Shown here one piece after another: positions 24,724 through 49,998 of a stretch of DNA of 59,494 bases. Source of the stretch: Ectothiorhodospiraceae bacterium WFHF3C12 (lineage in GTDB: Bacteria > Pseudomonadota > Gammaproteobacteria > Nitrococcales > Nitrococcaceae); assembly GCA_013519935.1 (NCBI GenBank), contig JACDUA010000021.1, positions 1-59,494 on the forward strand, read 5' to 3'. The position numbers and the translations under genes were made by a program. The notes under the pieces are model-generated. The model worked only from the letters and a program-made list of their open reading frames with translations, was not told the origin of the DNA and ran no database searches. Numbering within the stretch: position 1 is the first letter of the stretch; each line of letters starts with the position of its first letter.

Positions 24724-25467
24724 ATGAAGTCACAGGCGACCCTGGCGCCGTTGCTTTACGTCGCTTTCGGCGGCGATACCCGCGGCCGCAACCTGCCTGG
24801 CGAAGTCATGGACGAGCTCATCGCCATCGCCCAGGTGCTGCCTTCGCAGCAGCCGGGCGAGAGGCTGTTCGATCAGGGCGGCAGGACCGACCGCATCTAC
24901 ATGGCCCGCACCGGCCTGCTCAAGGGTGAGGTCAACAACGCCAACGGCCAGCGTCAGGTCATGGATTTCTATCTCGCCGGGGATTTCCTGGACATCCAGT
25001 CCCTGTTTACCCTGCGCCACCAGTGCCGGGTGGAGACCATAACCACCGCGACGGTGATCAGCCTGCCGTTGCGCGAGGTCCTGGCAATTGCAAGGCACTA
25101 CCCGGCCCTACAGGATGGCCTGCACAAGGCGATCGGCCGGGAGCTGCTAAAGCTGGACCAGGTTATATATCAGCTGTGCCGTCGCCCCGTGGGCGCTCGC
25201 ATCGCGTCCTTCTTCCTCGACCTCTCGGAGCGTTTCCAGGCGCTGGGCAACGAGCCGAGACGCTTCTACTTTCCGGCCCGCCGGGCGGACATCGCATCAC
25301 TGTTAATGATGGATCGAGCCACTTTCACACGCGGCTTCCGTGAACTGGAACGGGACGGTCTCGTCACTGCCGATGGGAGCGAGTTCCGGTTGCTGGATCC
25401 GGAGGGGCTGCGCCACCTTTCACTGGACGACGAGCTCACGGAAACCCGACAGGCCCGTAAGAACTGA
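24724..25467 (+). CDS. Crp/Fnr family transcriptional regulator
   Basis: This 247-residue protein has a cyclic-nucleotide-binding-type beta-roll (about 30-150, ERLFDQGGRTDRIYMARTGLLKGE) and a C-terminal winged helix-turn-helix (about 185-235, RRADIASLLMMDRATFTRGFRELERDGLV). It lacks an N-terminal cysteine cluster, so it is not an oxygen-sensing Fnr with a [4Fe-4S] cluster. The recognition helix reads ATFTRGF rather than the ETVSR of Fnr, so it should bind a different DNA site. It may respond to a ligand or redox signal. Confidence 0.85.
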   Translation: MKSQATLAPLLYVAFGGDTRGRNLPGEVMDELIAIAQVLPSQQPGERLFDQGGRTDRIYMARTGLLKGEVNNANGQRQVMDFYLAGDFLDIQSLFTLRHQCRVETITTATVISLPLREVLAIARHYPALQDGLHKAIGRELLKLDQVIYQLCRRPVGARIASFFLDLSERFQALGNEPRRFYFPARRADIASLLMMDRATFTRGFRELERDGLVTADGSEFRLLDPEGLRHLSLDDELTETRQARKN

Positions 25468-38710: not shown

Positions 38711-38749
38711 TTGATTAATGTCAACAGGATTCATCGACCCCGTTACTAG
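38711..38749 (+). promoter_or_regulatory. FNR/Anr-type box and -10 upstream of ompW
   Basis: TTGATTAATGTCAA at 38711-38724 matches TTGAT-N4-ATCAA with one mismatch. A TACTAG -10 (preceded by T) lies at 38744-38749, so the box centre is at about -39 to -41 from the start, the class II activator position. The start would be near 38756 and the ompW ATG at 38807. OmpW genes in several gammaproteobacteria are FNR-regulated. Confidence 0.7.
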
Positions 38750-38806
38750 ACTCTCCCACGGTGCAGCAGCCTGATCGGGCAAGCATTTCCAAACAGGGAG
38801 AGAACC

Positions 38807-39454
38807 ATGAGAGCAAGCACATTATCCTCGGCTCTGGCGATCGCCATCGCCGCCACGGGGGTTTCCGGTACCGCCATGGCTGCGGAGAAACCGTGGATCG
38901 TCCGCGGCACCATGAGCGCCATGGCAACGGACAACGAGAGCGACAGCCTCCGCCGGATCTCCGGTACCCAGATCCGCCTGGACAACGCCACCAGCCTGGC
39001 ACTGAACGCCAGCTACCTGTTCGGCGAGTACTTCGGCGTGGAGTTCGCCACGGCCCTGCCCTATGAGCACGACCTTGAGGGCAACAACCGCCTCCAGGGG
39101 CTGGGCGTGGAGGAACTGGCAGACGTGAAGCAGCTGCCGGCGACCCTGAGCCTTCAGGTACACCTGCCCACCGGCACCGCGTTCAAGCCTTATGTCGGGG
39201 CAGGCGTCAACTACACCTACTTCTACGACGAGGACTCGAGCGTCACCGGTCTCGACGTGGACATGGAGGACACCTGGGGCGCGGCCGGCCAGCTGGGCCT
39301 GGACGTCTTCCTGGAAGAGGACCTGCTGCTCAACGCCGAGGCGCGGTACATCCAGATGGAGAGCACGGCGGAATTCTCCGGCGCCATCAATCAGGACGTG
39401 GATATGGACATCAATCCCTGGGTCTTCAGCGCGGGGCTCGGCTACCGCTTCTGA
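38807..39454 (+). CDS. ompW: OmpW family outer-membrane protein
   Basis: This 215-residue protein has a signal peptide (about 1-26, LAIAIAATGVSGTAMA) and a mature 189-residue eight-strand barrel. OmpW motifs are WIVRGTMSAMATDNES, ALNASYLFGEYFGVEFATALP, GTAFKPYVGAGVNYTYFYDEDSS, and a terminal Phe (GLGYRF). OmpW forms a hydrophobic channel for small lipophilic molecules and is often induced under low oxygen. The promoter carries an FNR-type box. A GC hairpin and then a strong terminator follow. Confidence 0.93.
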   Translation: MRASTLSSALAIAIAATGVSGTAMAAEKPWIVRGTMSAMATDNESDSLRRISGTQIRLDNATSLALNASYLFGEYFGVEFATALPYEHDLEGNNRLQGLGVEELADVKQLPATLSLQVHLPTGTAFKPYVGAGVNYTYFYDEDSSVTGLDVDMEDTWGAAGQLGLDVFLEEDLLLNAEARYIQMESTAEFSGAINQDVDMDINPWVFSAGLGYRF

Positions 39455-39470
39455 ACGAATCCGCCACGGG

Positions 39471-39487
39471 GCCCGGCAACGCCGGGC
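39471..39487 (+). terminator. hairpin just after ompW
   Basis: GCCCGGC at 39471-39477 pairs with GCCGGGC at 39481-39487 around an AAC loop, 17 bases after the ompW stop. There is no T-tract, so it may stabilise the mRNA end or act with the stronger terminator further down. Confidence 0.4.
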
Positions 39488-39690
39488 TCCGGCGTGCCCT
39501 GGCGACGCTACGACACACCGCCACGACGCCCCCGGATGCAAACGCCGGCAGGGTGGGAAAGCGAAGCGCTTTCCACCACGTGGCCTACCTGAAATGCCCT
39601 GCAGAGATCATCCTCGGCGTTTGGGTTGCCGGGCTCGCCACTGTCCTGACTGCCGTTCGGCACAGCCACCGCCCGGACGATTCGGGTCAC

Positions 39691-39721
39691 AAAAAAAGGC
39701 CGGGCAATGCCCGGCCTTTTT
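39691..39721. terminator. bidirectional intrinsic terminator
   Basis: An exact 8-bp stem GGCCGGGC / GCCCGGCC with AAT loop (39698-39716) is flanked by seven A on the left and five T on the right. It therefore terminates both the ompW transcript (+) and the propeller-lipoprotein transcript (-), whose stop is at 39744. Confidence 0.9.
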
Positions 39722-39743
39722 CGTTGGAGCCTTGAGGCCTCGG

Positions 39744-42698
39744 TTAGCGGAAGAACACCAGTCCGCCCTCGTGGTCGGAGACGTACACCCGGCCGTGGGC
39801 GATGGCCGTGCCCGTGGCCTCGCCGACGGTGTCCTGATGCTGCATCAGGGTCGGGTTGGCCGGGTCGCTCCAGTCGATCTTGGCGACGCCCTCGGCACCG
39901 TAAGCGACGTAGAACAGCAGACGCGGCTCGTCGAGGACGTACCACTCGCCGTTGTCGTCGATCAGCAGCCGGTCGGCCGGGAAGTACTGCGGCGTCATGT
40001 ACAGCGCCTCGGGATCAGAACCCTCCATACCCGGCTCGTCCTGCATACGGTAGGCGCCGACCGCTTCCGGTCGATAGTCGTAGTCGTGCATCTCCCAGAT
40101 GTTGTCGGGAGCGATGCCATCCGGCAGGGGCGCCAGCATGTCCTCGATGCTGTAGGCGAGCAGACCGAAGCCGCCGTAGCTGTAGTAGACGTGGTCACCG
40201 ACTATGTCGACATCGATGCTGCGGCTGTCCGCCTTGCCGACATGCAGCGTGCCGTCATCCTCCAGCTCCAGCTTGATGGGCTCGAACAGCTTCACCAGCT
40301 CCATGCCGTCCGGATCACCGTCCACCAGCAGGCCGGTCATGTCCACGACACCCACGCCGGCATGTCCGGCGGCGACGAAGGCATAGACGCGGCCGTTGTC
40401 CGAATTGGTCCACAGCTCGACGCCGGAGGTACGCCCCAGGCCGGGCCTGCCGGACTCGGAACCCAGGTTCGCGACCACGTGGGCGCCGCCGAGGGTCGGA
40501 TCGACGGTAAGGTCATAGACGGTCAGACCGTTACTTCCGTCGGCCACGACCGCGTAGTCGCCGTGGAAGTCCACGTCGTAGACGTGGTCCTGCCGGCTGA
40601 TACCGCCGACCGAGCCGCTCGCGGTGTTGTGCTCGTAGAAGTCCGAGGGCTGCGGGGTCAGCAGCAGCGGCGCTCCCGGAACACCGTTGCCGGCTTCGGC
40701 ACCGCTGATGTCCACCCGGCGCATGCCGAGGCTCTGGGACATTACGAACGCCAGGCCGTTCTCCGGCTGGAGGACGTTGTTGTAGGCGTGCGGGGTCGGA
40801 TAGACCGTGGTACCGCCCGCGTCCTCCGGATACTCCTCCATCAGCGTGTTGGCCACCAGGTGGACGTCATCCACGGGGCTGCCGGCGTCGTCGGCAATCC
40901 GCCACACGCTCATGCCGTGCGGCCCGTCGGAGACGTACAGGTACTGATCCGTGGTCGCCACACCCTGGGTATGGCCGATGGATACGTCAGCCGTCGCGGT
41001 ACCGTCCGCCGCGGCGCCCACCTCGTCGGTGGTGGCGAAATGCACCGGGACGCTGAACCGGTCCGCCAGATCGGCCTGACCGAGATCGCCGAGGTCGAGG
41101 AAGTCCATGCCGCCGGAGCCGTTCGCCATGATCACGTCCACGTTGCCGGTGGCCGGATCGATTGTCGGCATCAGCTCGAAGGCGTTGCCGTGGCCGCTGA
41201 TCTCGCCGGTCACCAGCAGGCTGGGCGCCTCGTACATCCACACGGGCAGGGACTCGTTGTCCTCCGGATCGTAGTCGCCCATGTCATAGGAGGTGACGAA
41301 CTCGTAATCCGGCCAGTGATCGCCCAGGTCGCCAATGGTGTCGTTGTCGTAGGGCGCGCCGGCCTGCTGCCAGTTGGCGGCCGGATCACTGGCGCCGTCC
41401 AGAATGACCAGCCCCGCGAAGTGGTCGGAATAGAACACGCGGTCGTTGGCCGGATCGGCCATCACGTCGACCGTGCCAGCCTCCTTGAGCATGCCGGCCC
41501 CGAAGTAGGGGAACAGGCTTTGCGACTGCTGGCCGGTGGGCGCGTCCGGACCATGGGCCGGCACCGCCGGCGCGTAGCCCAGGTAGCTCAGGCTGGTCGG
41601 GTCGTTGGCGTCCAGCGCGACCAGGCCGCCCAGACCGTAGGCAACGAACACCCGCGTATCCGTGCCGAAGTCGGCGACGTCCAGCGAGCGGGCGTCGTAG
41701 TAGTACTTGCCGTAACGGTCGAAGTTCGCCCAGGGGGTCGGCGCGTCCGTATCGCCATGCCAAACCTCCAGGATCTCGAAGGAGGCCTGATCGTAATTGG
41801 GCATGCCGGTTTCCGGATCCAGGTTCCCGGTCTGGACTTCAGTGGCCACATCCATGTCCACGAACCAGTCCTCGGTCACCGAGGTGTCCGTGTACATGTT
41901 GTAGTAGCCGACCTTCGCCAGCGTGTCGGGATTGAACACGCCCACGCCGAGAAAGCCCTGGGCGGCGTACAGGTTCCCGTCATGCAGCTGGAGATCCTCC
42001 GGCCCGCCCCAGGGATGCTCACCGGCGAACTGCAGCGTGTAGACCTCGCTGTCGATCTGGAGCGTACCGTCGGCCTCGGTCACGGGCGTGGTGCCGAGCA
42101 CGTTGGACAGGGCGGTGCGCTGAATACCGTAAGCCTCGTTGCCGATCCACAGCGTGGTACCGTCTGTCGCCAACGCCACGACGGGCCCGTTGGTGCCCTC
42201 GATCACCGCGTCCTCGACCAGGCCGCCGCCGCCCTCGGCGAAGGTAATGCCGTCCTGGTAGTAGTTCACGGGCACGGTATGGAGCAAGGTCGGCGCCGTC
42301 GGGCTGCTGATGTCCACCACGGCAACGCCGGCGCCGCCCAGGGCCACCAGCGCATAGCGCACCCCGCCGGACTCCACCAGCTCGATGTCGTGAATGTATT
42401 CATCCAGCGAGACACGGGAAACCGCACCCTTCGTGACCTGGACCGGTGTCAGGGACAGGTGATTGGCGACGTTGAACACCGTCCAGTCGGTGCCGCTGTC
42501 GTCCGTGAACCGGGCCGTGGCGGTGGTGTCGCCGCCGATCTGGCCCGCCTGCTCATTGAGATACGCCTCCTGGATATGCAGGGGCTCCACGGAGCTCCCG
42601 GAACTGCTGTTGCCGCCGCACCCTGCGAGTCCCGCCGTAAGCAACGCGGAGGTCAGGACCACGCCCAGCGTGCGTCGACTGTAATTTGACTTACCCAT
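39744..42698 (-). CDS. large LVIVD-repeat beta-propeller lipoprotein
   Basis: This 984-residue protein starts with a lipoprotein signal: VLTSALLTAGLAGC, lipidation at Cys27, then GGNSSSGSS. It is composed of repeated strands like GVAVVDISSPTAPTLLHTV, GLVALDANDPTSLSYLG, GVGVVDMTGL, and GVAKIDWSDPANPTLMQH. These are LVIVD-type blades, which in other proteins stack as beta-propellers. Acidic residues dominate, consistent with a secreted halophile surface protein. No catalytic motif is seen. GGGAGGG precedes the ATG at 42698. The tandem FNR boxes at 42793-42806 and 42843-42856 suggest induction at low oxygen. The gene ends 23 bases before a strong terminator. Confidence 0.85.
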   Translation of the reverse strand: MGKSNYSRRTLGVVLTSALLTAGLAGCGGNSSSGSSVEPLHIQEAYLNEQAGQIGGDTTATARFTDDSGTDWTVFNVANHLSLTPVQVTKGAVSRVSLDEYIHDIELVESGGVRYALVALGGAGVAVVDISSPTAPTLLHTVPVNYYQDGITFAEGGGGLVEDAVIEGTNGPVVALATDGTTLWIGNEAYGIQRTALSNVLGTTPVTEADGTLQIDSEVYTLQFAGEHPWGGPEDLQLHDGNLYAAQGFLGVGVFNPDTLAKVGYYNMYTDTSVTEDWFVDMDVATEVQTGNLDPETGMPNYDQASFEILEVWHGDTDAPTPWANFDRYGKYYYDARSLDVADFGTDTRVFVAYGLGGLVALDANDPTSLSYLGYAPAVPAHGPDAPTGQQSQSLFPYFGAGMLKEAGTVDVMADPANDRVFYSDHFAGLVILDGASDPAANWQQAGAPYDNDTIGDLGDHWPDYEFVTSYDMGDYDPEDNESLPVWMYEAPSLLVTGEISGHGNAFELMPTIDPATGNVDVIMANGSGGMDFLDLGDLGQADLADRFSVPVHFATTDEVGAAADGTATADVSIGHTQGVATTDQYLYVSDGPHGMSVWRIADDAGSPVDDVHLVANTLMEEYPEDAGGTTVYPTPHAYNNVLQPENGLAFVMSQSLGMRRVDISGAEAGNGVPGAPLLLTPQPSDFYEHNTASGSVGGISRQDHVYDVDFHGDYAVVADGSNGLTVYDLTVDPTLGGAHVVANLGSESGRPGLGRTSGVELWTNSDNGRVYAFVAAGHAGVGVVDMTGLLVDGDPDGMELVKLFEPIKLELEDDGTLHVGKADSRSIDVDIVGDHVYYSYGGFGLLAYSIEDMLAPLPDGIAPDNIWEMHDYDYRPEAVGAYRMQDEPGMEGSDPEALYMTPQYFPADRLLIDDNGEWYVLDEPRLLFYVAYGAEGVAKIDWSDPANPTLMQHQDTVGEATGTAIAHGRVYVSDHEGGLVFFR

Positions 42699-42767
42699 CT
42701 ATTTCCCTCCCGGGAATCCGGAGTTATTCAAGTGTCCTGCGGGCCATGCGCGCCCGTAGCGCGGAAT

Positions 42768-42806
42768 GTAGTAATCCGTCCGGGAGACTCGGTTGATACC
42801 AGTCAA
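42768..42806 (-). promoter_or_regulatory. FNR/Anr box with -10 upstream of the propeller lipoprotein
   Basis: The box is TTGATACCAGTCAA at 42793-42806 (one mismatch from TTGAT-N4-ATCAA). On the minus strand a TTACTAC -10-like sequence is at 42773-42768. The distance box centre to -10 is 26.5 bases, exactly as before ompW. The start would lie near 42761. Confidence 0.65.
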
Positions 42807-42842
42807 CTGATGGAAGCCGAAGCGAAACAATCAGACACAAAC

Positions 42843-42856
42843 TTGATTTTCATCAA
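42843..42856. promoter_or_regulatory. second, perfect FNR/Anr box
   Basis: TTGATTTTCATCAA matches TTGAT-N4-ATCAA without mismatch. Its centre is 50 bases upstream of the first box, about five helical turns, so a second dimer could bind on the same face of the DNA as in tandem FNR/CRP promoters. Confidence 0.75.
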
Positions 42857-43453: not shown

Positions 43454-45634
43454 CTATTCCACGCTGGCCGAGGCCTCGGCCAGCACTTCCACCACGGGCG
43501 GCACGTTTAGGTAGAGCGTCTTGAACCGGCTCACCCGCCAGTCCTCGCCGTGGACCGCCTCGGCGAAGGCGGGACGAATGGACTGGTACAACAGGCGCAC
43601 CGAGACGGTAAACGGCGGTGTAGCCCCGGTTACCGGCAGCGCGTAGTGCACCGTGTCCGTGCCGCTGCCCTCGGTACCGCCGGCCCGATTGAAGTCGGGG
43701 TCCCCTTCGACGCCGGCGGGCGCCGTATCCGGCTCGAATGTGGGGGCATCGGTGCGGAAGCCGGCGGGCGGTATGCGGTTGTCCTTGAGATAGTGGTCGG
43801 CCTTGAGCAGCACATAGTTGATGCTGCCATTGGTGTCCGCCATCACGGGCTCGTAGATAGCCACTTGCCCCGATGCGGTGATCCGGTCCCGATGGGGCTC
43901 GTAGCAGCCGCCGTTGTCGAAGCCCGCTGGCTTGTCGGGCGCCAGGCACCGCTCCGCCACGTGCGCCGCGTCCACGCCCAATCGGCCCCGGTCGTCGGGC
44001 ACCCCGGAGGCGAAGACACGGGCGCCGCCGGCATCACGGACGACGACCTCCAGCCACATCCGGCGGCTCGGGTAGCTGGTCGGGAGCTTGTGGCCCGTGT
44101 GGTTCGTGATGGTCACCGAGAAGTCCAGGCCATCGCCGCTAACGCCGCCTATCCCCACATCCAGGCTCGCGGCGGTCCCAAGCATCCGCCGGGTATCCTC
44201 GATCTTGCGGTCGAAGCCGGCCACGCTGGTCCCCGTGTCGATGGCGAGCTCCTCGCGGTATTCCCGCAGCATGGTCAGGACGTGGGTGTTGCCCCCGGTG
44301 AAATCGTGGGGCGAAAAAGGGTTACGCTCCGGCCAGGCCGTGTTCACCGAGCCATTGGGACGCACGGCGATACGGGTCGTGAAACCGTCCTCGTCCGGCG
44401 AGGCCATGTGGCAATCCTGACAGCTGGATGCCCGGGGCCCGCCATCGCGGTAGTCGCTGTTCAGCCACTCGAAGTACGGCCCCTGCTCCAGGAACTCCTC
44501 GCCGGTGGGCTGGCCGGTATCCGCGTCCAGGGTGGGAGTGCGCAGGTTATGGCAGGTCGCGCACACCGCCGAGCTCCCCAGATGTTCGCCATGCGCGGGC
44601 GTATAGCCACTAACCTGCTCCATCGGCTGACTGACGGGGTTCTGGAACGGCCCGTAGATGGTCGGCGATTCGGCGTCGGCGTCGATGGTGTAACTGCCCG
44701 AGAACGCGGTTCCCAGGTTGCCGTCGTCCTGGATCTGGTGGCAGACCGTGCAGCTCACTCCCTCCCGCGCATGCATATCGTCCAGCGCGCTCTCGGCGCG
44801 GTAATAGCCGTCCGGGCCCAGGCCCTCGCCGGTCTGATGGGCGTGGGTCCGGGCCATGGGCGAGTGGCAGGTCAGGCATTTGTCCTCGATGAAGCCGGCC
44901 AGCTCGGGGAAACGCTCGCTCTCCTGGGCCATCACCGCCTGGAAATAGGGATCGTCGAAGCTGTGCGCCATCATGGAATGCCGCCATCCGGCATAGGGAC
45001 TGATGTCTTCCCCCTCCGGCGAGGGCGAGACGCCGCCCGGCGCCGGCTCGCGCATCACCGCCGGCGACTCGCCCCGCGGGCTGGCGCGATGGCAATCAGC
45101 GCAGACGGAGGCGGGCGCGAACGCGCCCACGGCGTCCCAATCGGAGTCGAACTCGTCCAGCGCGTGGAAATCGTCGTCGCGAATGGTGCCGATCGCCGCG
45201 CTCTCGGGCATCGAAGCACCCTGAATGCCGGTGACGGTGAGCGTGAACGCTTCCAGGGACTCCGCGACAGCATCGTCAATGAGGCCGACCTCCACGGTCC
45301 TGGTGCTCTCGCCGGGATCGAAGACGAGCGTTGCGGCTTCTGCGCTGAAATCGATACCGGCCTCCGCCGTGGCACCCTCCGGCTCGACCGTGAAGCTGAC
45401 CGGCTCAGCGGCCGGCTCGCTCAGCGTGGCGGTGAATGCCAGCGTATCCGACGACTCCACGGCCTCGGCGTCGGCGATCGAGAGCACAGGGAGCCCGGAC
45501 GAATCGCCCGGTATCTCGCTCCCGGAATCATCGTCACCCGTGCCACCGCCCCCACCGCCACAGCCGGCGAGGGACGCGGAGAGAGAGAAAGCGGCGAATG
45601 CAATCAGCAGACGGGATAGGTGTCTTGAAGTCAT
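43454..45634 (-). CDS. five-heme c-type cytochrome lipoprotein with Calx-beta domain
   Basis: This 726-residue protein starts at ATG 45634 (a TTG at 45637 is in frame). Lipidation would be at Cys25 of LAGCGGGGGG, after a signal peptide. Residues about 48-155 are a Calx-beta-like domain (GIDFSAEAATLVFDPGESTRTVEVGLIDD). Five CxxCH motifs lie at about 178, 253, 295, 358 and 405, separated by His/Met-bearing loops that could give bis-His hemes. The C-terminal third has SVTITNHTGHKLPTSYPSRR and resembles a cytochrome c554-like domain. It should sit on the outer leaflet or the outer membrane and move electrons. It is the first gene of the CPBP unit. It may export electrons to an external acceptor or take part in nitrogen or sulfur chemistry. 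Confidence 0.88.
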   Translation of the reverse strand: MTSRHLSRLLIAFAAFSLSASLAGCGGGGGGTGDDDSGSEIPGDSSGLPVLSIADAEAVESSDTLAFTATLSEPAAEPVSFTVEPEGATAEAGIDFSAEAATLVFDPGESTRTVEVGLIDDAVAESLEAFTLTVTGIQGASMPESAAIGTIRDDDFHALDEFDSDWDAVGAFAPASVCADCHRASPRGESPAVMREPAPGGVSPSPEGEDISPYAGWRHSMMAHSFDDPYFQAVMAQESERFPELAGFIEDKCLTCHSPMARTHAHQTGEGLGPDGYYRAESALDDMHAREGVSCTVCHQIQDDGNLGTAFSGSYTIDADAESPTIYGPFQNPVSQPMEQVSGYTPAHGEHLGSSAVCATCHNLRTPTLDADTGQPTGEEFLEQGPYFEWLNSDYRDGGPRASSCQDCHMASPDEDGFTTRIAVRPNGSVNTAWPERNPFSPHDFTGGNTHVLTMLREYREELAIDTGTSVAGFDRKIEDTRRMLGTAASLDVGIGGVSGDGLDFSVTITNHTGHKLPTSYPSRRMWLEVVVRDAGGARVFASGVPDDRGRLGVDAAHVAERCLAPDKPAGFDNGGCYEPHRDRITASGQVAIYEPVMADTNGSINYVLLKADHYLKDNRIPPAGFRTDAPTFEPDTAPAGVEGDPDFNRAGGTEGSGTDTVHYALPVTGATPPFTVSVRLLYQSIRPAFAEAVHGEDWRVSRFKTLYLNVPPVVEVLAEASASVE

Positions 45635-45906
45635 CAATACCTGCCGGGGCTTTCCAACCCCTTGGTCCAGCGATCCTTTATTGAGCAGCCACCCGATCTG
45701 GTACGCCCGGGAGTATGCTGCTGGCGTGACACATTTTTAGCACGCCGCCGGACGGGAAAATGTGAGCGGGGTCAACCACCGCCGGAAAACACCACCCTCG
45801 CGGGGCTGGACTGGACAAAGGGAGGGCATGGTGAATCCCGTGTCATGGGATCGCCGTTACCGGCCAGACGACCTGGCCTAACGAGAGATGCTCCGCGACG
45901 GGCGCG

Positions 45907-47580: not shown

Positions 47581-48603
47581 CTAAAGGAGCACCTCGGACA
47601 CGGGCCGGCGCACCGCCGGATCGGTGACGGGACCGTAGCCGAAGCGCAGCAGCAGCTGCGGGACACGCTGCACGCCCGAAACCGAGGCGAGCCGGGTTCG
47701 AAGCTCCGGCGTCTCGATGGGCTGGTTGAGATAGGACGAGCGCACGCCCTCCGCCGTGGCGCTCAGCAGGACGCGGGCCAGGGCCCGGCCGGTGTTGAGC
47801 CATGAAGGGCCATCGTCCCCAGCCGTGGAAAGCAGGCCGAGCGCGGGCGCGCCGGCGGCGATCTCCCGGTCCTGTTCCGCCACCTTGTTGCCCATGTCGA
47901 AGGTGCGCACCACCGCCGCGCCCACCGGCGAGAGCAGATCGGGCATGCCGAAGGCCGCACCCGATATGCCATCCCGCGAGTCGGCCCGCCGGGAGTGGAT
48001 CCAGGCGGCCAGCTCCCGCCGGAAGCTGCGGTTGGCGAACTGGATGCGGTCCCCCTCCGCCACGAGGCCAGAGATGGCGGTTCGGGTGGGCTCGTCGGTG
48101 AAGGCGTCGAAGGACACCGCCAGCTCGTTGGCGGCGGCGCTCATGCGGTTGAGCAACGCGTCCGGCACGGGCCGGTCCTCGTACTGCCGGCGCACCGTTC
48201 GGCGCTCGGCAATGGCCTGGAACAGACCGTCGACAGCCGCCGGATCGGCGGATTCACCGCTCAGGCTCACCCGCGCGACGAGGTCGCCCTCACCCTCTTC
48301 CGGAAACGCCGCCACCCGGGCTCCGAGCCCGAAGTGCTGCAGGGCCACGACCAGTGTCTCGGCGGCGGCACCGCAGGACATGGTCAGCTCCCGGTCCTCC
48401 GGGTCCACCACGGGCAGGGCGCGGCGGCGGTCGGCGTAGACGTCGACGGTGTCCGCCGACACCCGGAACAGCCAGGGCTGGGTGTTGTGTCCGGAAGGCG
48501 CCAGCACCGCGTACTGCAGCGCAAAGCGCAATTGCTCCGCGCTGTCGCCGCCGGCCGGGAAGGCGGACTCGTCGATCCGCCACGCCTCGTCGAATGCACT
48601 CAT
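47581..48603 (-). CDS. Acg-family nitroreductase-like flavoprotein
   Basis: This 340-residue protein matches the Acg subgroup: AVLAPSGHNTQPWLFRVSADTVDVYADRRRALPVVDPEDRELTMSCGAA in the N-terminal flavin-binding half and VSGVQRVPQLLLRFGYG at the C-terminus, where the family binds FMN in a deep pocket (often as a storage fold). Acg proteins are hypoxia-induced in mycobacteria. The start at 48603 begins MSAFDEAWRID; frames further upstream to 48693 have poor context. A partial FNR-like site lies upstream at 48714. Confidence 0.88.
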   Translation of the reverse strand: MSAFDEAWRIDESAFPAGGDSAEQLRFALQYAVLAPSGHNTQPWLFRVSADTVDVYADRRRALPVVDPEDRELTMSCGAAAETLVVALQHFGLGARVAAFPEEGEGDLVARVSLSGESADPAAVDGLFQAIAERRTVRRQYEDRPVPDALLNRMSAAANELAVSFDAFTDEPTRTAISGLVAEGDRIQFANRSFRRELAAWIHSRRADSRDGISGAAFGMPDLLSPVGAAVVRTFDMGNKVAEQDREIAAGAPALGLLSTAGDDGPSWLNTGRALARVLLSATAEGVRSSYLNQPIETPELRTRLASVSGVQRVPQLLLRFGYGPVTDPAVRRPVSEVLL

Positions 48604-48930
48604 GCTGTCACTCCTCACACTGACCACTGGCTCTAACGGGACCGGGAACCGAATGCCGGCGACCCGACCACCCACGTTCACGGCCACTATCACAGCAGGC
48701 GCGGTAGACGCCGGTGATCCAGGTCAACGATGGCGCGGCATGCCAGGCGTATTACTCACGCCCTGCCCGCGAAATCCGGCCCGGCGCGGCGGCAAAGCAT
48801 TGCGCGACGACCCTGCCCCGGCGATCCGCTTGATTGCCATCAACACCCATCTCCCGGCAATCTGCGATTTTCCCGGGGCGGACCGCCAGAGTCCGGTTCC
48901 GCACGCCGCTTTCGCCGAGGACCACGGCCG
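48604..48930. other. 327-bp divergent intergenic region with an FNR-like site
   Basis: The region separates the nitroreductase gene from the deacetylase gene. GTGATCCAGGTCAA at 48714-48727 matches 8 of 10 fixed positions of TTGAT-N4-ATCAA. A GATAGT -10 (48691-48686, minus strand) or a TATTAC (48750-48755, plus strand) lies about 29 bases from its centre on each side, so it could serve either gene. No gene is found in it. Confidence 0.4.
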
Positions 48931-49998
48931 ATGACCGACGGGCAACCAACCAGAGACGGTGACACGGAAGAATCGACACCGTACCCCCGTGCGCCGGGGC
49001 GCGCGGTAAAGACCAGCCGTGCCACCTGGCTGATCTCCCACCCGGCATGCCTGGCCCACGACACCGGGCCGAACCATCCGGAAAGCCGGCGACGGCTGGA
49101 GGCGGTCCTCGCGGCGCTGGAGGCGCCCGGCTTCGAGGCCCTGGCGCGGCGTGACGCCGTGCCCGCCACGCGAGAGCAGCTCGGCCGCATCCACGACCCG
49201 GCGTACGTCACCGCCGTGCTGAATGCCGTGCCCTCCAGCGGCTATCGCGTGCTGGACGCGGACACCAGCAAGCCGATGGCCGCGATCGCCGCCCAGGACG
49301 AGTCGGCACTGATACCGGACACCGTCGTCTCGCCGGCCTCGGGCGAGGCGGCCCTGTACGCCGCCGGTGCGGTCTGTCGCGGGGTGGATGCCGTACTGGG
49401 CGGGGAGGCGCGCCGGGTCTTCTGCGCCGTGCGGCCGCCAGGGCACCATGCGCTGCGCGCGCAGGCCCTGGGGTTCTGCCTGTTCAACAACATCGCCGTG
49501 GCCGCGGCCCATGCGGTCGCGGCGCACCACCTCAAGCGCGTGGCCATCGTCGATTTCGACGTCCACCACGGCAACGGCACCCAGTCCATGGCTGACGGCC
49601 GTCCGGAGTATCTCTACGTCTCCATCCATCAGCGCCCGCTTTACCTGGAGAGCGGCGGCCGCGAGGAGAACCGCCCCGGCAACATCTGCAACATCCCGCT
49701 GCCGCCCGGCAGCGGTTCCGCGGCATTCCGCGGCCGCTTCTCCACCGACGGCCTGCCGGCGCTGTTCGATTTCGATCCGGAGCTGATCCTGATATCCGCC
49801 GGGTTCGACGGCCACCGGGACGATCCGCTGGCGGACCTGGGCATCACCGAGGAAGACTACGCCTGGCTGACCGGCGAGCTGGTGGCGGCGGCGAACTACT
49901 CGGCCGGGGGACGCGTTGTCTCGGCCCTGGAAGGGGGCTACAACCTGGAGGCCCTGCAAAGATCCGTGGCGGCCCACGTCCGCGCACTGATGGACTGA
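48931..49998 (+). CDS. histone-deacetylase family protein
   Basis: This 355-residue protein has the arginase/deacetylase fold: ISHPACLAHDTGPNHPESRRRL, RPPGHHALRAQ (tandem catalytic His), IVDFDVHHGNGTQ (zinc ligands Asp, His), ISAGFDGHRDDPL (zinc ligand Asp). It is close to the acetylpolyamine or acetoin-type deacetylases. The ATG at 48931 is preceded by GAGGACC; a frame to 48730 is not coding. The substrate is not known from sequence. Confidence 0.92.
   Translation: MTDGQPTRDGDTEESTPYPRAPGRAVKTSRATWLISHPACLAHDTGPNHPESRRRLEAVLAALEAPGFEALARRDAVPATREQLGRIHDPAYVTAVLNAVPSSGYRVLDADTSKPMAAIAAQDESALIPDTVVSPASGEAALYAAGAVCRGVDAVLGGEARRVFCAVRPPGHHALRAQALGFCLFNNIAVAAAHAVAAHHLKRVAIVDFDVHHGNGTQSMADGRPEYLYVSIHQRPLYLESGGREENRPGNICNIPLPPGSGSAAFRGRFSTDGLPALFDFDPELILISAGFDGHRDDPLADLGITEEDYAWLTGELVAAANYSAGGRVVSALEGGYNLEALQRSVAAHVRALMD

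Follow-up and report, generated by a model that had tools for sequence, protein, structure and literature searches.

FNR-type boxes and predicted class II promoters of ompW and an adjoining giant lipoprotein gene

Two convergent genes and their FNR-type boxes

The window, by which we mean the whole 59,494-nt stretch of DNA analysed here, contains two convergent genes that encode an outer-membrane barrel of the OmpW family and a large lipoprotein with LVIVD repeats. The genes, their predicted promoter elements and the region between them comprise the following features.

38711..38724, plus strand: FNR box of ompW, TTGATTAATGTCAA, with one mismatch to TTGATN4ATCAA; centre at predicted -41.5
38747..38752, plus strand: predicted -10 of ompW, TAGACT, 22 bases past the box; predicted start 38759
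38807..39454, plus strand: ompW, encoding an outer-membrane barrel of 215 aa; PF03922, 147.4 bits (cut-off 24)
39695..39719, no strand assigned: inverted repeat between an A run and a T run, located between the convergent genes; likely a shared two-way terminator, identified by eye
39744..42698, minus strand: lipoprotein with LVIVD repeats, 984 aa; PF08309, 52.7 bits (cut-off 20.2); lipobox LAGC
42765..42770, minus strand: predicted -10 of the lipoprotein gene, TACATT, 22 bases past the proximal box; predicted start 42758
42793..42806, minus strand: proximal FNR box of the lipoprotein gene, TTGACTGGTATCAA, with one mismatch; centre at predicted -41.5
42843..42856, minus strand: distal FNR box of the lipoprotein gene, TTGATGAAAATCAA, perfect; centre at predicted -91.5

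The boxes at 38711, 42793 and 42843 are all intergenic, their flanking genes have Pfam support, and the two boxes of the lipoprotein gene are separated by 50 bases. A first-pass annotation of this DNA had placed the three boxes at these same coordinates, with the one at 42843-42856 as the perfect copy, and had considered the agreement between the two genes unlikely by chance. The coordinates hold. Within the entire window, TTGATN4ATCAA is matched four times with at most one mismatch, whereas 200 dinucleotide shuffles of the window contained 0.385 such boxes on average and never more than 3.

In class II promoters the centre of the box is 29.5 bases from the first base of the -10. The hexamers found at this distance, TAGACT and TACATT, each agree with TATAAT in 4 of 6 positions, as opposed to 3 of 6 for the hexamers at 26.5. 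Since the -10 stands at 29.5 in both promoters, the ompW box and the proximal lipoprotein box are centred at -41.5 and the additional lipoprotein box at -91.5 with respect to the predicted starts. On these starts, both promoters combine two features of class II, namely, a TTGATN4ATCAA-like box (0 or 1 mismatch) and a centre at -41.5.

The same geometry had already been ascribed to both genes, and this part stands, whereas the distance of 26.5 to a TTACTA-type -10, given as that of class II, does not. TTACTA begins 25.5 bases from the box centre; 26.5 reaches TACTAG in the ompW promoter and TACTAC in that of the lipoprotein gene. These two hexamers were rejected as -10 candidates, being 3 bases short of class II and poorer than those at 29.5. 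TTTACTAGACTCT was found again before the linked ompW genes of three other carriers of the lipoprotein (L117, L121 and L122), which have no box near the start. Since the string of the TTACTA region also occurs in promoters without such a box, the shared TTACTA may be ordinary -10 context rather than a special element. The observation is sound once the -10 is corrected, and overall it was partly confirmed. TTACTAGACTCT is common to the -10 region of the window ompW and the linked ompW promoters of L117, L121 and L122.

Two further FNR-type boxes were noticed between 48714 and 48843, near divergent genes for a nitroreductase and a histone-deacetylase-like protein, and at both boxes a -10-like hexamer follows after 22 bases.

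48714..48727, minus strand: FNR-like box with two mismatches, before the Acg-family nitroreductase gene (listed at 47581-48693, minus strand)
48830..48843, plus strand: fourth box with at most one mismatch, perfect; upstream of the histone-deacetylase-like gene, with GATTTT 22 bases further

The histone-deacetylase-like gene is listed as 48730-49998 and has another in-frame ATG at 48931; the listed start would put the perfect box inside the gene. The ATG at 48931 is likelier, and the box is intergenic only if the gene starts there. The nitroreductase matches NF047509 with 328.4 bits (cut-off 199). GATAGT, 22 bases after its box, falls within the listed frame, which makes a start at the ATG at 48603 likelier.

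The layout across the genome and at other OmpW loci

Boxes with at most one mismatch occur 90 times in the genome, compared with 9 for the reversed pattern, and the combined layout TTGAYN4RTCAA-N21..23-TANNNT occurs at 17 sites, compared with 0 for the reversed control, which ignores codon use, so that these ratios serve as a guide only. The arrangement of box and -10 is thus shared by 17 sites and extends beyond the two genes. In the window, ompW and the lipoprotein gene account for two of these sites, and the 15 other downstream proteins were all scanned with NCBIfam. UbiU was identified downstream of two sites (540.7 and 539.2 bits, cut-off 440), and V-type ATPase subunit B and a PHA granule protein, both over their cut-offs, downstream of one site each. 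A NarK-family transporter follows another site, with a score below the cut-off (220.4 versus 311.7), as is also the case for proteins matching Hsp20, sulfide-quinone-reductase, P450, acyl-CoA-dehydrogenase and PPOX-class models; the remaining five (L034, L035, L036, L039 and L046) had no NCBIfam match at 1e-8. Some of the sites may be chance, since 6 of the 17 lie inside a mechanical frame of at least 150 codons on one strand.

The window OmpW exceeds the Pfam cut-off by far, and is below that of the narrower NCBIfam OmpW equivalog (134.4 versus 287). Of 59 relatives, 12 have an OmpW match, as do 96 of the 369 genomes sampled from the class, the own genome being counted in each. A survey of promoters covered 39 OmpW loci including that of the window, after the partial L069 and L070 had been dropped and class-sample matches beyond 30 left out; 'upstream' was counted from the start of the match and not from the start codon, and the matches of L080, L089 and L102 begin at residues 22, 49 and 56. 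A box with at most one mismatch is present within 300 bp in 32 of these 39 genes (31 of 38 without the own gene) and absent from this range in the other 7; 15 boxes are perfect, and 34 of the 39 genes have one when two mismatches are allowed. In 100 shuffles of the upstream regions, on average 0.59 and at most 3 of the 39 were boxed, and the box rate upstream of OmpW genes is 22 times that in the rest of the same loci. In 23 of the 31 other boxed promoters NANNNT stands at a spacing of 22, and each of the 25 further spacings in the range from 10 to 35 gave 0 to 5 of 31; some of the loci are mutual close relatives, so that these counts are not all independent.

Links of this kind are known. It was shown that FNR binds the E. 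coli ompW promoter directly at TTGATN4ATCAA-type sites centred at -81.5 and -126.5, which the authors termed unconventional in the accessible part of their report (PMC4886647), and FNR motifs at this promoter have been footprinted across orthologues, according to the available portion of another (PMC13058942). The E. coli gene thus resembles the window gene in being an OmpW gene with FNR-type sites and differs from it in their positions, the window box being at -41.5, as in the 23 of 31 promoters above; the accessible part of PMC4886647 mentions no lipoprotein partner. Among the sampled OmpW loci of the own class, these sequences suggest -41.5 as the common position of the box, in place of the arrangement found in E. 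coli. In Pseudomonas, oprG, an OmpW-family gene (PMC2993939, as far as its accessible text goes), belongs to the core Anr regulon, with an Anr box that five species share, and its expression is lower in anr mutants of PAO1 (PMC6588701, accessible text). Control by an activator of the FNR/Anr type is what is predicted here as well, and the word 'lipoprotein' appears 0 times in the available main text of PMC6588701.

The lipoprotein and its link to OmpW

Cys27 of the lipobox is the sole cysteine of the window lipoprotein, and a simple lipobox pattern is present in 15 of 18 lipoprotein sequences. The AF2 model has a pLDDT of 68.6 and a pTM of 0.71, with 231 of the 984 residues below a pLDDT of 50. 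Its alignment to seven-bladed WD40 propellers reaches a Z of about 29 over about 285 residues that are spread over 42-984, and the middle domain is likewise propeller-like by itself (Z about 22, pLDDT 67.0). With moderate confidence, the model may be read as one propeller closed by both ends of the chain with a second one inserted. A search for PDB sequence relatives gave none up to E 0.1, and the two hits of a profile search (E 0.81 and 1.2) were taken as chance. The matches listed by Foldseek and VIA-align are generic propellers; copper propellers of the nitrous oxide reductase or SBP56 type were not seen among those listed, which excludes nothing.

Nitrous oxide reductase and SBP56 are propellers with a histidine-ligated metal, in which histidines from several blades meet at the axis. 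Eight histidines (426, 461, 503, 576, 594, 637, 690 and 705) of the 27 in the window protein are invariant in 17 full-length sequences, and H576, H637 and H705 occupy, by eye, the same place in successive repeats. Such a set, located within residues 426-705, is unusual in a repeat protein; that it holds a metal is a guess. Two other features of this region were noted. An open frame of 1165 codons (39192-42689) opposite the lipoprotein strand was regarded as a consequence of GC-rich codon use. Separated from the lipoprotein gene by one other gene, 43454-45637 encodes a protein of 727 aa that combines five CxxCH heme motifs with a Calx-beta domain and a lipobox-like N-terminus; no box with up to two mismatches is present just before this gene.

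BtuG of Bacteroides is a propeller. The BtuB-BtuG system (PMC6143338, PMC10404256) likewise combines an outer-membrane barrel with a surface lipoprotein; it involves a TonB-dependent transporter and vitamin B12, whereas the window pair has a small OmpW barrel and a lipoprotein without a PDB sequence relative. LVIVD-repeat surface proteins (PF08309; PMC2447325, available text) belong to the same repeat family as the window protein, for which a propeller is predicted here; the window protein differs from them as a lipoprotein of 984 aa with eight invariant histidines. In literature searches that reach few subscription journals, no title on an LVIVD lipoprotein with OmpW was found among the matches listed.

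Relatives of the lipoprotein were obtained from a contig search, which gave nine, and from the Marinobacter pelagius family, in which 10 of 163 genomes possess one, two of them being already among the nine. Including the own genome there are at least 18 carriers, a number that is a lower bound because the contig search was built on short peptide patterns and can miss distant relatives. Matches were also obtained in 8 of 369 class-sample and 2 of 398 phylum-sample genomes; except for the own genome these are short, low-scoring stretches only, and such partial matches were not counted as carriers. Within the own order, the protein is present in 1 of 54 genomes, the own one, and its absence from the 53 others searched makes transfer likely.

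An OmpW gene adjoins the lipoprotein gene in 11 of the 18 carriers, in convergent order in the window and nine others and in divergent order in Mangrovitalea; adjacency was established by Pfam for the window, L049 and L050 and by tblastn to the window OmpW for ten others. In three more MAGs (L052, L054 and L055) a PF13505 barrel, which does not match the OmpW model, follows on the same strand 12 to 25 bases after the lipoprotein stop. L051, L053 and L056 have no barrel neighbour among the listed frames, and L057 is cut by the contig end. The linkage extends over at least three genera, and the linked OmpWs are only 33.6-43.4% identical to the window OmpW. In an OmpW tree of 49 rows, from which rows of up to 190 residues (L089 and L102) were left out, a branch with support 100/97 separates the 11 linked OmpWs from the 38 others, among them a second OmpW of the M. 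pelagius genome and one of the Mangrovitalea genome; the tree is midpoint-rooted, and the term 'clade' hinges on this root. The two genes had been described as unrelated, a view that conflicts with their being conserved neighbours in 11 of the 18 carriers. Overall, the earlier interpretation was supported in part. The relatives show a neighbourhood of long standing, and the two genes may work together when oxygen runs out.

Boxes were sought within 300 bp or 350 bp upstream of the chosen start of the lipoprotein genes. A box with at most one mismatch is present in 10 of the 18 carriers (the window, L050, L052, L054, L055, L115, L118, L119, L120 and L121), and L049, L114, L116 and L117 have one with two mismatches; L051 and L053 have two-mismatch matches only, which are out of position, and no box was found upstream of the genes of L056 and L057. 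All ten Marinobacteraceae genes possess a box with up to two mismatches; its distance to the chosen start is 98 to 151 bases, and the -10 spacing in these promoters is, by reading, 21 to 23 bases, L114 being without a clear hexamer. In Mangrovitalea, a two-mismatch box precedes the proximal box by 49 bases. The linked ompW genes differ among themselves in this respect. The boxes of the window, L115, L118 and L120 are credible, and no box is found near the start of the convergent ompW genes of L117, L119, L121 and L122 (4 of 9 in Marinobacteraceae); in L114 and L116 the boxes have two mismatches and resemble coding sequence belonging to the next gene, and the linked ompW of Mangrovitalea (L050) has no class II layout. 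Since boxes are missing or doubtful at these genes, co-regulation is not kept everywhere, and conservation of the box is better at the lipoprotein gene than at the partner ompW.

Candidate regulators and a proposed low-oxygen unit

FNR and Anr are marked by a cysteine cluster together with an E..SR helix. The window encodes a Crp/Fnr protein at 24724 that scores 75.4 bits on the Fnr model (NCBIfam NF008365, cut-off 228), and its translation has neither the N-terminal cysteine cluster nor the E..SR helix, in agreement with the earlier statement that it lacks the cluster and has a differing recognition helix. The expectation of a regulator encoded elsewhere was also borne out: at G000:C114:67215-67925 lies an Fnr (L019) with 287.6 bits, the translation of which contains CGDCSLYQLC and ETMSR, corresponding to the N-terminal cluster and the helix. 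Across the carriers, an Fnr over the cut-off was identified in 15 of 18, own genome included, and not in L054 (best 184.5 bits), L055 (189.6) and L056 (33.2). L054 and L055 have a lipoprotein box but no Fnr over the cut-off, the Thiomicrorhabdus genomes L051 and L053 have an Fnr over the cut-off but neither a box with at most one mismatch nor a linked barrel, and L056 has neither box nor linked barrel.

In our reading, both genes are probably activated by an FNR/Anr protein from class II sites at -41.5 and are a conserved pair that would form a low-oxygen outer-membrane unit. From the boxes and their geometry and conservation, the linkage, the OmpW subfamily and the regulator gene, all read in the DNA itself, we infer binding, activation, oxygen as the signal, a substrate and, from gene neighbourhood only, the physical partnership. 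The likeliest activator at low oxygen would be the Fnr at G000:C114:67215-67925, a dimer of which, with its iron-sulfur cluster, would bind at -41.5 of each promoter, take over the -35 contact and touch RNA polymerase beside a weak -10, as in class II activation. The distal box at -91.5 would most likely tune the lipoprotein promoter, in the way that tandem sites act at ompW of E. coli. The convergent, separately promoted genes would thus produce in step a distinct OmpW and a lipid-anchored protein of two propellers; the propeller would probably capture or process a substrate (or a metal or redox partner), which the barrel would pass. A more specific version, which would amount to a previously undescribed outer-membrane machine, is doubtful: the dedicated OmpW subfamily would be the pore of the double propeller, the second propeller of which would bind a metal through the eight histidines and act, on the cell surface and at low oxygen, on a substrate that is redox-active or bound to a metal.

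Several other explanations bear on the regulator and its effect. It is unlikely, though conceivable, that another Crp/Fnr-family protein, either an NO-responsive one of the Dnr type or another cysteine-bearing Fnr-like protein, uses the same boxes, with NO or another cue as signal. PF00027 was found at 16 places in the genome, and four further Crp/Fnr-type proteins (L023, L025, L026 and L031) have an N-terminal CxxCx5C cluster; the scores of L023, L025 and L031 on the Fnr model (169, 126 and 146 bits) all remain under 228, and among the nine matches of this model in the genome only that at C114 is over the cut-off. UbiU, whose NCBIfam name includes anaerobic, has the same layout, yet the sites cannot separate these regulators. 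It is rather improbable that FNR binds and represses, or that the distal box makes activation peak under microaerobic conditions; in E. coli ompW, FNR activates from -81.5 and represses from -126.5, but -41.5 is the class II position of FNR-dependent promoters, both according to the accessible part of PMC4886647. That the boxes are chance matches and the geometry a coincidence is hardly credible at this locus: each -10 agrees with TATAAT in only 4 of 6 positions and the genome contains 90 boxes, but the shuffles of the window and of the 39 OmpW promoters and the single preferred spacing argue against it, and for OmpW promoters in general this preference for 22 makes a chance origin very unlikely as far as sequence can tell.

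The partnership itself has the most plausible of these competitors, which we still regard as improbable, namely, that the neighbourhood is a relic of one transfer and that both genes are simply members of a large FNR regulon, with no joint work. Linked OmpWs that form one group need no more than a single origin, boxes near the start are missing from four of the linked ompW genes, and none of the 53 other genomes searched in the own order contains the lipoprotein. Yet the linkage has been kept across at least three genera despite the low identity of the OmpWs to the window protein, it outlasts a switch from convergent to divergent order, and in three MAGs a different small barrel (PF13505, not the OmpW model) adjoins the lipoprotein.

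OmpW proteins are widespread and repeatedly found to be under FNR or Anr control. As to their cargo, C4-dicarboxylates are one proposal among others (PMC4886647, accessible part). Control of OmpW-family genes by FNR or Anr is already known, and the lipoprotein partner is the new part: a regulatory link of this type is nothing unusual for OmpW, whereas for the lipoprotein, as judged by the literature searches, it has not been described. With an OmpW subfamily tied to one giant lipoprotein, there is a partner open to deletion, pull-down and assay, and the conserved ompW-lipoprotein pair is the part worth following.
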